Positions 2,796 through 7,860 of a DNA stretch of 64,000 nucleotides are shown one piece after another (position 1 is the first letter of the stretch; every line of letters starts with the position of its first letter). The DNA comes from an uncultured Bacteroidales bacterium (GTDB taxonomy: Bacteria > Bacteroidota > Bacteroidia > Bacteroidales > F082): contig CAMZAM010000006.1 of NCBI GenBank assembly GCA_947304185.1, positions 1 through 64,000 of the forward strand, in the 5' to 3' direction. Made by a program: the position numbers and the translations under genes. The notes beneath the pieces were generated by a model. It did no database searches, was not told the DNA's origin, and saw only the letters and a list, made by a program, of their open reading frames with translations.

Positions 2796-2806
2796 TAATT
2801 TTTTTG

Positions 2807-2814
2807 TACCTTTG
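2807..2814 (+). promoter_or_regulatory. -7 box TACCTTTG of the riboswitch transcript
   Basis: This matches the Bacteroidota sigma consensus TAnnTTTG. It lies 12 bases after the ccsBA stop and just before the cobalamin riboswitch, so transcription should start close to 2820. Confidence 0.75.
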
Positions 2815-2815
2815 C

Positions 2816-2957
2816 AGCCGCATTGGAAAAGGGAATGCCGTGCAAATCGGCAACAGTACCCGCTGCTGTAAGCCCGCATAACGGCCTGTCAATCAAGCCA
2901 CTGTCGAAAGATGGGAAGGCGACAGGCTCGGGCGAGTCAGAAGACCTTGCCAGGCAA
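2816..2957 (+). promoter_or_regulatory. Cobalamin (vitamin B12) riboswitch
   Basis: Class features appear in the expected order: GGGAATGCCGTGCAAATCGG near 2831, then CAACAGTACCCGCTGCTGTAA, the AAGCCACTG segment at 2895-2903, GATGGGAAGG at 2910-2919, and a B12 box GAGTCAGAAGACCTTGCC at 2934-2951. The aptamer begins just after a -7 box and ends about 40 bases before the ATG at 2996. In Bacteroidota this RNA normally lowers expression of corrinoid uptake genes when cobalamin is plentiful. Here the downstream gene encodes a secreted DUF4465 protein rather than a TonB receptor. Confidence 0.93.
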
Positions 2958-2995
2958 CATAGTTAAATTTATTTCGGGATTAAAATTAAATTATC

Positions 2996-5899
2996 ATGAA
3001 AAAGTGTTTCTTCTTAACACTGTCGCTTCTATTTGCGACAATTGTAAATGCCCAATTATCAGGTACTTACAGCATTAGCAGTAATTCTTCCTCAAACCCA
3101 GACTACACCTCGTTGAGTGCTGCAGCAACGGCTTTGCAAGCTGGCGTTTCTGGACAGGTGATTTTTGAAATCGCCCCAGGAACGTATGAGGAATACGTAA
3201 CAATCAACCAAGTCGGTGGAGCATCGGCTACCAATCGCGTTATCTTCAGAGGCATGGGCGCTGATAATCAGCAAGTTGTAATAACCAGCAACGCCGGTTA
3301 CACCGACAACAGCACTCTCAAACTCAATGGTGCCGACTACGTAACATTCGAGAATATGACGGTGACGACGACATCGACAGCCAAAGCGCGTTTGTTGGTA
3401 TTCGACGGCCAATGCGACTATGATCGTTTCGAAAATGTGCGTTTCGTGGGCGTGGAAGTAGCTTCAAATTCAAGCGATAACGACAAAAACCTCGTTCACA
3501 TGAACAACGGCGATGGCATCGTTGACCACGACACACAGTTTGTCGGATGCCAGTTCATAAACGGATGTATCGCTCTTTATCTGCAAGGAAAGAACATGAC
3601 GTTGTTCAACGAAGGTGTGCTCATAGAAGACTGCACCTTTGAAAACCAACAGTTTAAGTCGATTTATCTCACATTTTACCATAATATCGTGCTTAGTGGC
3701 AACACCATCGTCAATGCCAACGACTTCAAGACCGACTACAACGCTATCGACATTTTTCAATGCTACAACGGTGCCATCATCGAGAAAAACGTGATGAACG
3801 TGACTCGCACAACGGCTTATACTACAGTGTTTAGAATCCGTCCGCTGGTTGGAACTGCTGATAATCATGTAATCATCAGAAACAATATCGTCAACCTTCA
3901 GGCCAATTCGAGCAGTTATGCTTTCGCCATCGACTACAACGACTGCGCATATATAGATTTCGCGCACAACACGCTGAAATGCACAGGAACAGGCGAAAAC
4001 ATCAATATTTTTGTACAGAAAAACGGTACAAACTTCAACTTTTACAACAATTTGCTTGTAAATGAGACCAACGGTTATGTCTTCCGTTTTAACAACGATG
4101 TTGACAGCCGTGTTTGCGACTATAACAGGATTCAGTATTCAGGTACAAAACTCGGTCGTTTCACCAGCACCGACTGCGCCACGCTGGCCGACTGGACAGC
4201 GGCATCAGGTTTCGATGCACATTCAACAATGTGTACACCTAACTTTGTAGGTACCAACGATTTACACATTACTGATGCAACAAATTTGACAGTTGCAAAT
4301 CCTCTTTCATATGTCACTACCGACATCGACGACCAGAGCCGTTCAATGACAACACCTTGCGCTGGCGCCGACGAGTTTGCAAGCGGCACCAACCTGCCTC
4401 CAGTCGTAGCAAATCCTGTTAGTAACATCACTTTCGAGACTTATCCGGCAAGCCAGACCGTGAACTTAAACAACACTTTCAACGACCCTGACGATCCGAA
4501 TGAAAATATAGTCATCACAGTGGCTTCGAACAGCAACTCAACGCTCGTTTCGGCTGTTTTGAACAACAGAACTTTAACCGTGACACGTCTTGTGGCAACA
4601 GGAGGAACGGCGACTATCACGCTCAATGCGGAGAGTGCCGGACAGTCGGTGCAGACCTCGTTTTCGGTGGAGTGCGTTGCTGAAGACCTGCCGCCTGTAG
4701 TGGCGAACCAGCTGGCTCCAATCAGCTTCACAGAATACCCACAGACGTTGGCTTTCGACCTCAGCAACACCTTCGATGACCCTGACAATAACAACGACTT
4801 CATAGAAATCAGCGTGCAAAGCTGTCCGTCGGAAATTACAGCAACAATCGATGAGGAAGATGTGCTTACAGTCAGCAGGACGACATCTAACGCATTTACC
4901 AACAAGACTTTAGTCATCCGTGCCACCAGCAACGGAAAACATGTTGACATGAATGTCAGCGTATCGGGTAACGAAGTCTCAGTGACAATCGGAACCGCCA
5001 CTTTCGACGATGTCGTTTTGGGTTCAGGAGGCTACTGGGTCGGCGAAGAAGGTGAAAATGAAATCTTCAGCGGCGGCTGGATGTTTACCAACTATTATTC
5101 ATCGTATTTCTGGGGCGGATTCACTGCCTCTAACCATACCGATTTAACTCAGACTGGCTTGAATGCTCAGTACACCGCGGTTACAGCTGAAGGTTACGAC
5201 GGTTCATCACAATATGGCGTGGCCTACACTTTCGGTGCTCAGACCGACGTCTATGCCTCTGACGGTCAAGAACATACAGTAACAGGATGCTATGTGACAA
5301 ACAATCTCTGGGCTTATCAGAGCGTAGTCAATGGCGACTCTTACTGTACTCCTTTCGGCGGCACAACAGGTAACGATCCCGACTGGTTCAAACTTACCGC
5401 TACAGGTAAAAACGCAACTGGTCAGACGGTAGGAACACTCGATTTCTATCTCGCTGACTATCGTTTTGCAAATAACGAAGAAGACTATGTCGTCGACACA
5501 TGGGAATGGTTTGACCTCAGCCCTCTCGGTGCCGTTCACACCATCTCGTTCAGTCTTTCTTCGACTAAAGGTGACCAATATGGCATGCTCACGCCTGCTT
5601 ATTTCTGCATCGATAACTTCAACGGCGAGGGTCCGACACCTCCAAATCCGCCACAAGGTCTGTCGGAAAATGAATTATTGAATATTGCGATTTACCCGAA
5701 TCCTGCACATGATTTTATTCGTGTGGAGACACAATTAATCGCGTCTGTACAACGTGTTGAAATATATGGCATTACCGGACAAATGATGCTATCTACAACA
5801 GATACTGAAATCAATATAGGTGAATTGCCGGAAGGCGTTTATTTTGTTGCAGTTTTCACTGATAATCAGAAATTTGTTGAAAGAATTGTAATAAAATAG
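2996..5899 (+). CDS. T9SS-exported surface protein with beta-helix, two Ig-like repeats and DUF4465 domain; candidate corrinoid binder
   Basis: Protein of 967 residues. A signal peptide ends near residue 19 (IVNA|Q). Residues about 30-460 look like a right-handed parallel beta-helix of the pectate-lyase type. Two Ig-like repeats of about 99 residues both begin with LPPVVAN (near 465 and 564). Residues about 665-878 form a DUF4465 domain, recognised from TFDDV, SGGWMF, NDPDWFKL, DFYLADYR and the closing CIDNF. The last 79 residues are a type A T9SS sorting domain (YPNPAHDF near 900, VYFV). A cobalamin riboswitch sits directly upstream. From memory, DUF4465 occurs in Bacteroides surface lipoproteins implicated in B12 capture (BtuH). 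Corrinoid binding is therefore my inference; no ligand residues can be assigned by eye. Confidence 0.85.
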   Translation: MKKCFFLTLSLLFATIVNAQLSGTYSISSNSSSNPDYTSLSAAATALQAGVSGQVIFEIAPGTYEEYVTINQVGGASATNRVIFRGMGADNQQVVITSNAGYTDNSTLKLNGADYVTFENMTVTTTSTAKARLLVFDGQCDYDRFENVRFVGVEVASNSSDNDKNLVHMNNGDGIVDHDTQFVGCQFINGCIALYLQGKNMTLFNEGVLIEDCTFENQQFKSIYLTFYHNIVLSGNTIVNANDFKTDYNAIDIFQCYNGAIIEKNVMNVTRTTAYTTVFRIRPLVGTADNHVIIRNNIVNLQANSSSYAFAIDYNDCAYIDFAHNTLKCTGTGENINIFVQKNGTNFNFYNNLLVNETNGYVFRFNNDVDSRVCDYNRIQYSGTKLGRFTSTDCATLADWTAASGFDAHSTMCTPNFVGTNDLHITDATNLTVANPLSYVTTDIDDQSRSMTTPCAGADEFASGTNLPPVVANPVSNITFETYPASQTVNLNNTFNDPDDPNENIVITVASNSNSTLVSAVLNNRTLTVTRLVATGGTATITLNAESAGQSVQTSFSVECVAEDLPPVVANQLAPISFTEYPQTLAFDLSNTFDDPDNNNDFIEISVQSCPSEITATIDEEDVLTVSRTTSNAFTNKTLVIRATSNGKHVDMNVSVSGNEVSVTIGTATFDDVVLGSGGYWVGEEGENEIFSGGWMFTNYYSSYFWGGFTASNHTDLTQTGLNAQYTAVTAEGYDGSSQYGVAYTFGAQTDVYASDGQEHTVTGCYVTNNLWAYQSVVNGDSYCTPFGGTTGNDPDWFKLTATGKNATGQTVGTLDFYLADYRFANNEEDYVVDTWEWFDLSPLGAVHTISFSLSSTKGDQYGMLTPAYFCIDNFNGEGPTPPNPPQGLSENELLNIAIYPNPAHDFIRVETQLIASVQRVEIYGITGQMMLSTTDTEINIGELPEGVYFVAVFTDNQKFVERIVIK

Positions 5900-5904
5900 T
5901 CGCC

Positions 5905-7218
5905 ATGAGAAAGCAATATCAAGCAGTTACAGCGGCCGAGGCCGTAAAAGTAATAAAATCGGGCGACCATGTTCATATCAGCTCAGTATCCAATGTGCCG
6001 CAATGTCTGGTGAAGGCGCTCTGCGACCGAGGCCGCGCCGGTGAGTTGAAAAATGTGTACATCCATCATCTTCACACTGAGGGCGCTGCCCCTTACGTCA
6101 ACCCTGAATTTGAAGGTATTTTCCAGCATAATGCCTTCTTCGTGGGCGCCAATGTTCGCGAGAGTGTGCAGAAAGGGTTAGCCGACTATATCCCAGTATT
6201 TCTTGGTGAAACCTCAAAATTATATCGTGAACGATATATTAAATGTAATGTGGCTATGATCCAGGTGTGTCCGCCTGATAAGTTCGGTTACGTGTCGTTG
6301 GGTTCATCTGTTGACGCCACTTTGGCAGCCATGGAGAGTGCCGAGTTCGTTATCGCAGTTGTCAACAAACACGTGCCACGTACCTTCGGCGATGCCTTGG
6401 TACATATCAGCAGAATCAACGTGTTCGTCGAAGACGACACCCCTCTGCTCACCGTCGACATGCCTGAGCCTAACGAGGTGGAGAAAACCATCGGACGTTA
6501 TTGTGCCGAGCTCATCGAAGACGGCGCCTGCCTCCAGATGGGCATCGGTTCGATACCGAACGCCATCCTGTCGTGCCTCCATAACCACAAAAACATTGGC
6601 ATCCACACCGAGATGTTCTCCGACGGTATACTGCCGTTAGTGAAAAAAGGCGTCATCACAGGTGAAAACAAGAAACTCGACAAAGGTAAGATCGTCTCCA
6701 CCTTCGTGATGGGTTCGAAGAAAATATATGACTTTATCGACAGCAACCACGAGGTGGTCATGAAAGACGTGGAGTACACCAACGATCCGTTTATCATAGC
6801 GCAGCAGCCTAAGATGACGTCAATCAACTCGGCCATCCAAGTCGATTTGTCGGGACAGGTATGTGCCGACTCTCTCGGCGACAAGATTTACTCGGGTGTA
6901 GGCGGTCAGATTGACTTTGTGTACGGTGCCTCGCGCTCCAAGGGCGGAAAGGCCATCATCGCCATGCCCTCGACCACCAGAAAAGGCATCAACAAGATTG
7001 TGCCGGCTCTGGATCTGGGCTCTGGCGCTGTCACCACGCGTAATCATATCCACTGGTTTATCACTGAATACGGTGCGGTGAACCTCTACGGCCGTTCGCT
7101 GCAGGAGCGCGCCAAGCTCATCATCTCCGTCGCTCATCCGAAATACCAGGAGGAGCTCGATGAGGCGGCATTCAAGCGCTTTGGTCCACATTATCATTAT
7201 ATTTGCAAAAACTTATAA
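5905..7218 (+). CDS. CoA-transferase of the acetyl-CoA hydrolase/4-hydroxybutyrate CoA-transferase family
   Basis: Cytoplasmic enzyme of 437 residues, full length for the family. It exchanges CoA between an acyl-CoA and a carboxylate. Glu236 in GIHTEMFSDG matches the position of the catalytic glutamate that forms the glutamyl-CoA intermediate in AbfT-type enzymes. The substrate-loop pattern SGVGGQIDFVYGASRS is near residue 331. Acetate, butyrate, propionate, succinate and 4-hydroxybutyrate partners cannot be told apart from sequence alone. The ATG lies five bases after the DUF4465 gene stop, so it is probably cotranscribed and also under the B12 riboswitch. A link to the B12-dependent succinate-propionate route would make sense but is only an inference. 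Confidence 0.88.
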   Translation: MRKQYQAVTAAEAVKVIKSGDHVHISSVSNVPQCLVKALCDRGRAGELKNVYIHHLHTEGAAPYVNPEFEGIFQHNAFFVGANVRESVQKGLADYIPVFLGETSKLYRERYIKCNVAMIQVCPPDKFGYVSLGSSVDATLAAMESAEFVIAVVNKHVPRTFGDALVHISRINVFVEDDTPLLTVDMPEPNEVEKTIGRYCAELIEDGACLQMGIGSIPNAILSCLHNHKNIGIHTEMFSDGILPLVKKGVITGENKKLDKGKIVSTFVMGSKKIYDFIDSNHEVVMKDVEYTNDPFIIAQQPKMTSINSAIQVDLSGQVCADSLGDKIYSGVGGQIDFVYGASRSKGGKAIIAMPSTTRKGINKIVPALDLGSGAVTTRNHIHWFITEYGAVNLYGRSLQERAKLIISVAHPKYQEELDEAAFKRFGPHYHYICKNL

Positions 7219-7266: not shown

Positions 7267-7860
7267 ATGTTAGGACATATCAATTTCATTGAGATCTTCG
7301 GCGCCTTCTTCGTGATGGCCGCCATTATCGATATTTTTGGGTCGATACCTATTTTTGTGAGCATGAGGGAACAGAACAAAGTCATCAAGGCGGGTCAAGC
7401 CTGCCTTGTGGCTTTGGGCTTGTTTTTGGCGTTTTTCTTCGCCGGCGACGGGTTGTTGAGGCTCTTCGGCATCGACTCGGCCTCGTTTGCAGTAGCAGGC
7501 TCATTTGTGCTCTTCGTGCTAGCCGTCGAGATGATTTTAGGTCGCGAGATCATTAAAAACGAGAACAACAGTGGTGGAGCGAGTATAGTGCCGGTGGCAT
7601 TTCCACTCATCGCTGGTCCGGGCGCGCTGACAGGTCTGCTGTCGCTGCGTGCCGACTACGGAATCATCAACATCCTGATAGGATTGCTGCTGAATATCGC
7701 CCTCGATTATGTGGTGATTCGACATCTCGACAAGATTCAGAAGCTGTTAGGACAGAATCTAATCTTTATCCTAAGAAAATTCTTCGGCGTGATATTGCTA
7801 GCGATAGCCGTAAATATGTTTGTCAACAACATTATGGTGATTATTGCAAAAGTTCATTAG
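7267..7860 (+). CDS. MarC family integral membrane protein
   Basis: A 197-residue hydrophobic protein with six predicted membrane segments and the MarC (UPF0056) signatures GSIPIFVSM near residue 26 and AGPGALTGLLSL near residue 117. Length and pattern are normal for the family, whose function is still unsettled; a transporter-like fold is assumed. It starts 48 bases after the CoA-transferase stop. It may belong to the same transcript, although no clear promoter or terminator is visible in the short gap. Its stop codon directly abuts the stop of the oppositely oriented gene at 7861. Confidence 0.88.
   Translation: MLGHINFIEIFGAFFVMAAIIDIFGSIPIFVSMREQNKVIKAGQACLVALGLFLAFFFAGDGLLRLFGIDSASFAVAGSFVLFVLAVEMILGREIIKNENNSGGASIVPVAFPLIAGPGALTGLLSLRADYGIINILIGLLLNIALDYVVIRHLDKIQKLLGQNLIFILRKFFGVILLAIAVNMFVNNIMVIIAKVH

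Follow-up and report, generated by a model that had tools for sequence, protein, structure and literature searches.

A cobalamin riboswitch ahead of a T9SS-tailed DUF4465 protein and a CoA-transferase: a candidate B12-starvation operon of ruminant-gut Bacteroidales

The genes metE and nrdDG encode B12-independent isozymes of B12 enzymes, and MetE substitutes for MetH. Cobalamin riboswitches placed over genes for such isozymes have been described as a functional class in the available part of PMC3766115. On the side of corrinoid capture, the closest described proteins are BtuJ1 and BtuJ2 of B. thetaiotaomicron (PDB 9FCT, 9QPM, 9I2L), lipoproteins encoded in btu operons which combine a DUF4465 domain and riboswitch control with the sequence T-P-x-Y in the HI loop. 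The domain entry IPR026444 is assumed here to be the T9SS sorting domain. According to the accessible portion of PMC12751083, this entry is the C-terminal targeting motif of 229 of 824 DUF4465 proteins, a picture that differs from that in the accessible text of PMC13398666, which predicts lipoproteins for more than 70 % of the family and a periplasmic location for the remainder. The latter source also reports B12 binding for eight DUF4465 members, all of them distant from the protein described below. BtuH2, as presented in the excerpt of PMC8941943, carries its B12-binding domain at the C-terminus, behind an Ig-like stalk.

The window, i.e. the whole stretch of DNA analysed here, comprises 64,000 nt from an uncultured Bacteroidales bacterium (F082; assembly GCA_947304185.1, contig CAMZAM010000006.1). 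The host genome of 2.08 Mb is 98.8 % complete and contains three cobalamin riboswitches. The features of the locus are as follows.

2796..2967, plus strand: cobalamin riboswitch aptamer RF00174 (cmscan, 85.4 bits against a gathering score of 31.5)
2807..2814, plus strand: TAnnTTTG at the 5' end of the aptamer match (TACCTTTG at 2807)
2859..2862, plus strand: CCCG in a loop read as L5, present in 16 of 16 window-layout leaders
2964..2992, plus strand: AT-rich hairpin read as P13/L13, with a CGGG loop (2975-2978) invariant in 16 of 16 leaders
2996..5899, plus strand: T9SS-tailed DUF4465 (BtuJ-family) protein, 967 aa (profile and PDB matches)
3053..4240, plus strand: right-handed parallel beta-helix, residues ~20-415
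4391..4969, plus strand: two Ig-like repeats, residues ~466-658 (AF2 strands, pLDDT about 80; Foldseek Ig/cadherin matches)
5099..5620, plus strand: DUF4465 B12-binding-type domain, residues 702-875 (Pfam E 3.7e-53; BtuJ1 chain 9qpm E 4.9e-25)
5690..5893, plus strand: T9SS type A sorting domain, residues 899-966 (PF18962, TIGR04183)
5905..7218, plus strand: AcetylCoA_hydro-family CoA-transferase, 437 aa (profile and PDB matches)
7267..7860, plus strand: MarC/NAAT-family membrane protein, third gene in the row (PF01914, 101.2 bits)

The first-pass annotation, made from the sequence alone, had proposed a cobalamin riboswitch before a 967-residue protein, a DUF4465 domain joined to a beta-helix and two Ig-like repeats, a T9SS tail, and a CoA-transferase gene five bases downstream; the RNA family search, the profile and structure matches and the presence of SprA in the genome bore out all of these parts. 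The DUF4465 profile PF14717 gave 180.9 bits against a cut-off of 25. TIGR04183 was found at 45.8 bits against 23, which together with the SprA encoded in the host genome (2506.5 bits) marks the protein as T9SS cargo.

The protein resembles BtuJ1 and BtuJ2 in its DUF4465 domain, riboswitch control and HI loop, and differs from these lipoproteins in the T9SS tail, the beta-helix, the Ig-like repeats and the CoA-transferase neighbour. With the C-terminally tailed DUF4465 class it shares export by a C-terminal signal, whereas neither a CoA-transferase/MarC row nor a beta-helix/Ig stalk is mentioned in the portion of PMC12751083 available. As in BtuH2, an Ig-like stalk precedes a C-terminal B12-binding domain, but that of BtuH2 has another fold, and DUF4465 is not mentioned in the excerpt of PMC8941943. 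The BtuH label given to the protein in the first-pass annotation was rejected: the literature assigns DUF4465 to BtuJ (accessible part of PMC12751083), and BtuH has a different fold (excerpt of PMC8941943). A PDB search with the 967-aa protein listed no BtuH chain, in a PDB copy for which the presence of BtuH is not established.

The annotation's proposal of corrinoid capture stood as likely. In the HI loop, T866-P867-A-Y869-F870, the T, P, Y and F are identical in 23 of 23 homologs; T866, P867 and Y869 align with T242, P243 and Y245 of BtuJ1, and F870 also matches BtuJ1. Tyr146 in the DE loop of BtuJ1 aligned to Trp772, with Y774 two residues on (W772 and Y774 are both invariant in the 23), and Asn241 of BtuJ1 aligned to Leu865. 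DUF4465 and the T9SS tail occur together in all 23 homologs, which were picked from the long homologs with exclusion of shorter ones. Foldseek on the DUF4465 region matched 9hmu and 9qpm, although the DUF4465 core was poorly modelled by AF2; among the 50 Foldseek matches listed, the beta-helix proteins from a second look were absent, phage tail entries excepted. By analogy with the eight distant B12-binding members (available text of PMC13398666), the protein is likely a T9SS-exported corrinoid trap. Tailed DUF4465 proteins were already reported in the accessible part of PMC12751083, and the capture half of the locus is not new.

DUF4465 was found in 60 of 149 genomes of a family sample and occurs once in the host genome. 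A divergent DUF4465 subgroup of about 590-670 aa (L075-L081) was seen in six genomes, genus members in which no window-type CoA-transferase was seen; a YgfH-type succinate CoA-transferase is present in 4 of these 6 genomes.

The TAnnTTTG motif, presumably the Bacteroidetes-type −7 element, is found close to the beginning of 96 of the 97 riboswitches compared. The AT-rich hairpin with the CGGG loop stops 3 nt short of the start codon in the window and a few bases short of it in all 16 window-layout leaders, and the plus strand between the riboswitch and the DUF4465 gene showed no terminator-like site. With the CCCG loop read as L5, this arrangement fits a translational off-switch acting through a kissing loop of CCCG with CGGG. 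In B. thetaiotaomicron, B12 nearly abolishes the activity of reporters placed behind btu leaders, and transcription termination was proposed (accessible part of PMC12751083), a mode different from the translational one read here. The sign and mode of the switch in the window organism are deduced, since the reporter data come from B. thetaiotaomicron.

The unexpected half of the locus is the CoA-transferase. Its place beside cobalamin riboswitches is conserved and likely means the opposite of what the first-pass annotation proposed. Its gene starts 5 nt past the DUF4465 gene and is followed by marC. In the genus, a copy of at least 90 % identity is present in 60 of 99 genomes (62 copies). The close set comprised 61 of those 62 copies and 13 further distinct ones at 88-92 % identity obtained by a contig scan, giving 74 copies at ≥88 % identity, of which four were without upstream DNA (L097, L069, L070 and L071; the 54 nt of riboswitch end in L070, at 28.6 bits, was not counted). 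A cobalamin riboswitch stands over 64 of the 70 close copies with usable upstream DNA: directly, at a distance of 30-261 nt from the start codon, in 46; with a DUF4465 gene between in 16, as in the window; and with other genes between in 2. The six close copies without a riboswitch (L105, L106, L114, L115, L122, L100) gave none by nhmmer or a custom covariance model, and four of them none by Rfam either, over upstream stretches of 1.05 to 5.1 kb. Eleven distinct copies with 71-74 % identity all lack a cobalamin riboswitch.

Riboswitches were identified by Rfam in the window and in loci among L036-L067, L095, L096, L119, L120 and L189-L203 (without L192), and by nhmmer alone in those loci from L098-L118 and L121-L129 that were classed. 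Omitted as duplicates were L192, L193 and L204 (the same as L125, L126 and L127) and 54 loci with transferase DNA identical to other copies (L135-L188); a second copy in G139 (C16) and partial copies in G138, G166 and G171 were omitted as well.

The gene order around the transferase varies. In the 16 window-layout loci the distance from the DUF4465 stop codon to the transferase start is −4 to +18 nt. Among the 46 direct loci, 7 have DUF4465 past MarC on the same strand and 1 has it upstream, also on that strand; 6 have it in convergent orientation and 4 in divergent orientation, there with a riboswitch of its own; in the other 28 it is not within the retrieved DNA, which often extended only 3 kb downstream. 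In two loci (L119:662-4966 and L120:467-4961) the riboswitch is followed by one or more large secreted-looking genes at the place of DUF4465, and then by the CoA-transferase. In 73 of 85 distinct loci MarC follows the CoA-transferase at a distance of ≤700 nt. Three of the 11 distant, riboswitch-free loci (L206, L208, L209) also have the CoA-transferase-MarC pair, and the pairing with MarC may therefore predate the riboswitch link. The sequence TATATTTG at 7198 could be a separate promoter for MarC. The link between CoA-transferase and cobalamin riboswitch is real as a genomic pattern and is kept while the gene order changes. Among the literature matches listed, covering titles and the beginnings of abstracts, a cobalamin riboswitch was not tied to this CoA-transferase.

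In the riboswitch tree (FastTree, short sequences) the 16 window-type riboswitches form one clade (0.90), the sister of which (0.87) contains 22 of the 33 riboswitches that precede DUF4465 alone. In the transferase tree, made by a quick method with support below 80 at 41 of 82 inner branches, the window layout is flanked by copies directly behind a riboswitch. Such topologies suggest that the order riboswitch-then-CoA-transferase is the older one. On the simplest reading, the transferase would have lost its own riboswitch and retained B12 control by relocating behind DUF4465.

The CoA-transferase belongs to the AcetylCoA_hydro superfamily, with PF02550 at 87.1 and PF13336 at 203.5 bits, both above cut-off. 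It missed the equivalog cut-off for butyryl-CoA:acetate CoA-transferase (TIGR03948, 317.4 against 674.8 bits) and the subfamily cut-off for succinate CoA-transferase (TIGR03458, YgfH; 113.4 against 658.7 bits), and its best PDB match was 2oas, named 4-hydroxybutyrate CoA-transferase. The P. gingivalis enzymes PGN_0725, PGN_1341 and PGN_1888 are assumed to belong to the same broad family; PDB entries 3eh7 and 3d3u, presumably of P. gingivalis origin, scored 592 and 518 bits with the 4-hydroxybutyrate (4HB) operon paralog described below and 409 and 338 bits with the window enzyme, and orthology of the P. gingivalis CoA-transferases with the latter is not established. All three PGN enzymes have butyryl-CoA:acetate activity, two also act on propionyl-CoA:acetate, and the CoA-transferases tested showed no 4HB activity and no use of succinyl-CoA (available part of PMC4949257). 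The window enzyme would be an acyl-CoA:carboxylate, probably an acyl-CoA:acetate, CoA-transferase.

Nearly all of the 80 named CoA-transferase relatives carry a Bacteroidales or Bacteroidia label, bacterium F082 included; a ruminant host appears in the titles of 37, and another 25 bear RUG labels, taken here to denote rumen genomes. In the host genome of the window, the first of the three cobalamin riboswitches stands ahead of a BtuB-like receptor (TIGR01779, 101 bits, under the cut-off of that model) and a DUF5074 propeller protein, presumably of the BtuG type; the second precedes two T9SS proteins without a recognisable fold, and the third is that of the window. The second locus (L006:12713-14877, contig C1, minus strand) is a riboswitch-led row for two T9SS-tailed proteins of 394 and 327 aa; Pfam gave the tail only and PDB the T9SS tail plus weak matches. 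Of 25 loci encoding the 327-aa protein, the host's own among them, 22 showed a riboswitch, and both proteins are possibly further T9SS corrinoid traps. Inclusion of the fumarate reductase genes in the B12 regulon was considered and rejected, since sdhC is set apart from the btuB/btuG-like genes, on inspection by eye, by a GC stem plus T-run and by a TAttTTTG element.

The B12-dependent enzymes encoded by the host are MutB and KamE, and two mutase-family genes are adjacent. A PF02310 search of the host genome gave four B12-binding-domain matches, one below cut-off and none MetH-like. Methylmalonyl-CoA mutase was found in 91 of 99 genus genomes, and its presence does not mark transferase carriers, so that this co-occurrence is uninformative. 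On contig C17 (L260:6113-12491) the genes kamE, atoA, crt, hbd, acyl-CoA dehydrogenase, etfB and etfA stand in a row, which probably serves lysine fermentation to butyrate with one B12-dependent step; the riboswitch scan of the host genome gave no cobalamin riboswitch there.

A precedent for a cobalamin riboswitch over a fermentation branch was found in relatives. A CoA-transferase paralog 45-46 % identical to the window enzyme occurs in 5 of 99 genus genomes, in a row comprising 4HB-CoA dehydratase (PF11794/PF03241), a NifU-like protein, the CoA-transferase, Fe-ADH and aldehyde dehydrogenase; the complete row was read in L134 only, and the dehydratase is present in all five (L130-L134), each time behind a cobalamin riboswitch. 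PF11794 was above cut-off in 10 of 295 genomes of an order sample. Outside the genus, six close homologs of the dehydratase were compared: L246 and L247 (family f88) have a riboswitch, L242, L244 and L245, from other families, have none, and L243 has only 168 nt of upstream DNA. In family f88, PF11794 is present in 26 of 38 genomes; of the 23 loci where the dehydratase start is intact and upstream sequence is available, 17 have a riboswitch ahead of the gene and 6 have none. These loci were L246, L247 and L262-L283, with L264 and L284 (without upstream DNA) and G470 (interrupted dehydratase frame) excluded from the 23; the G470 loci L285 and L286 gave no riboswitch by nhmmer. Fifteen of the 17 riboswitches were found by nhmmer and a custom model built with L246 and L247, which themselves were identified by Rfam.

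In Tannerella, a cobalamin riboswitch was noted in one sentence upstream of 4-hydroxybutyryl-CoA dehydratase, a gene glossed there as adenosylcobalamin biosynthesis (excerpt of PMC7160235), and among the literature matches listed this sentence is the only link between a riboswitch and 4HB. As in that case, the loci described here place a riboswitch over a B12-independent butyrate-branch gene, now in two groups, but the window genome differs from the Tannerella case in having no 4HB dehydratase (PF11794), and the precedent is for this reason not directly applicable to it. A B12-repressed 4HB route has the look expected of a B12-free replacement for the mutase route, an expectation that may be carried over to the window transferase by analogy.

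The observed parts, their order and the riboswitch-transferase link seen through several gene orders can be joined into a model that we regard as probable, though by no means secure: a B12-starvation operon in which a capture protein and a B12-independent fermentation exit are under one switch. With B12 present, the riboswitch would turn the operon off, as judged from the B. thetaiotaomicron reporters, the CCCG-CGGG kissing loop probably holding the hairpin against the start codon; translational coupling would carry the control to the CoA-transferase gene, as the two genes nearly touch. When B12 is scarce, the BtuJ-family protein, predicted to bind B12, would be made, exported by T9SS and displayed on its beta-helix/Ig stalk, and the captured corrinoid would be handed to the BtuB/BtuG-like pair, whose genes lie at another locus behind a riboswitch of their own. 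Since B12 represses such leaders in B. thetaiotaomicron, the acyl-CoA:carboxylate (probably acyl-CoA:acetate) CoA-transferase should likewise be made at low B12, together with MarC, and would provide a B12-independent finish to fermentation while methylmalonyl-CoA mutase and lysine 5,6-aminomutase idle. As in the class of B12-independent isozymes, B12 would here turn off a B12-free substitute; unlike the known members of that class, which are isozymes of B12 enzymes, the window gene encodes a fermentation CoA-transferase.

The riboswitch might instead control the DUF4465 gene only, the CoA-transferase and MarC following downstream with their own or read-through expression. Translational control, suggested by the lack of a terminator-like site, need not reach a second gene, and the transferase-MarC pair of the distant loci exists without any riboswitch. 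Such an uncoupled arrangement is nonetheless quite improbable: no TAnnTTTG occurs from 5600 to the CoA-transferase start, the short intergenic distances favour coupling, and in 46 distinct loci the transferase follows the riboswitch with no DUF4465 between. The strongest counter-argument is the move proposed above, in which the transferase would have left its own riboswitch for a place behind that of DUF4465.

Two other explanations accept B12 control of the transferase and assign it another task. The first-pass annotation had tied the enzyme to B12 as a servant of the B12-dependent succinate-propionate route, co-regulated to match the cofactor supply; the tie to B12 held as a genomic pattern, and the direction is probably the reverse. 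The two adjacent mutase-family genes and the absence of a YgfH-type succinate CoA-transferase from the host genome speak for that route, and the window enzyme could fill the YgfH place, since YgfH-type enzymes (4 of 99 genus genomes) were never seen together with a copy of the window transferase. A B12-repressed switch, however, would shut the enzyme off exactly while the route runs, the score on the succinate CoA-transferase model is far below its cut-off, and the four cobalamin riboswitches of Xylanibacter ruminicola KHP1 are all away from propionate genes (available part of PMC11575231), which leaves service to this route hardly probable. Alternatively, the transferase may free CoA from succinyl-CoA or propionyl-CoA when the mutase stalls without B12, with no butyrate branch involved. 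X. ruminicola accumulates succinate without B12, according to the same portion of PMC11575231, and the only other transferase match in the host genome is a 28 %-identical subunit of the 3-oxoacid CoA-transferase type. Recovery of CoA is possible but rather unlikely in view of the crt-hbd-acyl-CoA dehydrogenase-etf cluster of the window genome and of the P. gingivalis CoA-transferases, of unestablished orthology, which did not use succinyl-CoA in the available part of PMC4949257.

With the B12-starvation operon as the preferred reading, a wider and more tentative proposal may be put forward: in ruminant-gut Bacteroidales, and in the 4HB-operon carriers of a second family, riboswitches would choose the end products of fermentation. 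Low B12 would bring on the CoA-transferases, and the 4HB route where present, shifting carbon from B12-dependent propionate to B12-independent butyrate or acetate; in the window lineage, a surface trap that fetches more B12 would be made from that transcript as well. The propionate and butyrate formed by rumen and gut Bacteroidales feed the host animal, and propionate formation competes with methanogenesis for hydrogen. If B12 sets the end product by riboswitch, beyond the mere loss of mutase activity, it would be a regulatory signal for fermentation. The window lineage would then differ from X. ruminicola KHP1, since the latter has no cobalamin riboswitch near a propionate gene in the accessible portion of PMC11575231. 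By analogy with the Bacteroides lipoprotein B12 traps, the DUF4465 protein would represent a beta-helix-stalked T9SS alternative to them, and the locus as a whole suggests an organism that hunts for B12 and alters its fermentation when B12 is short.
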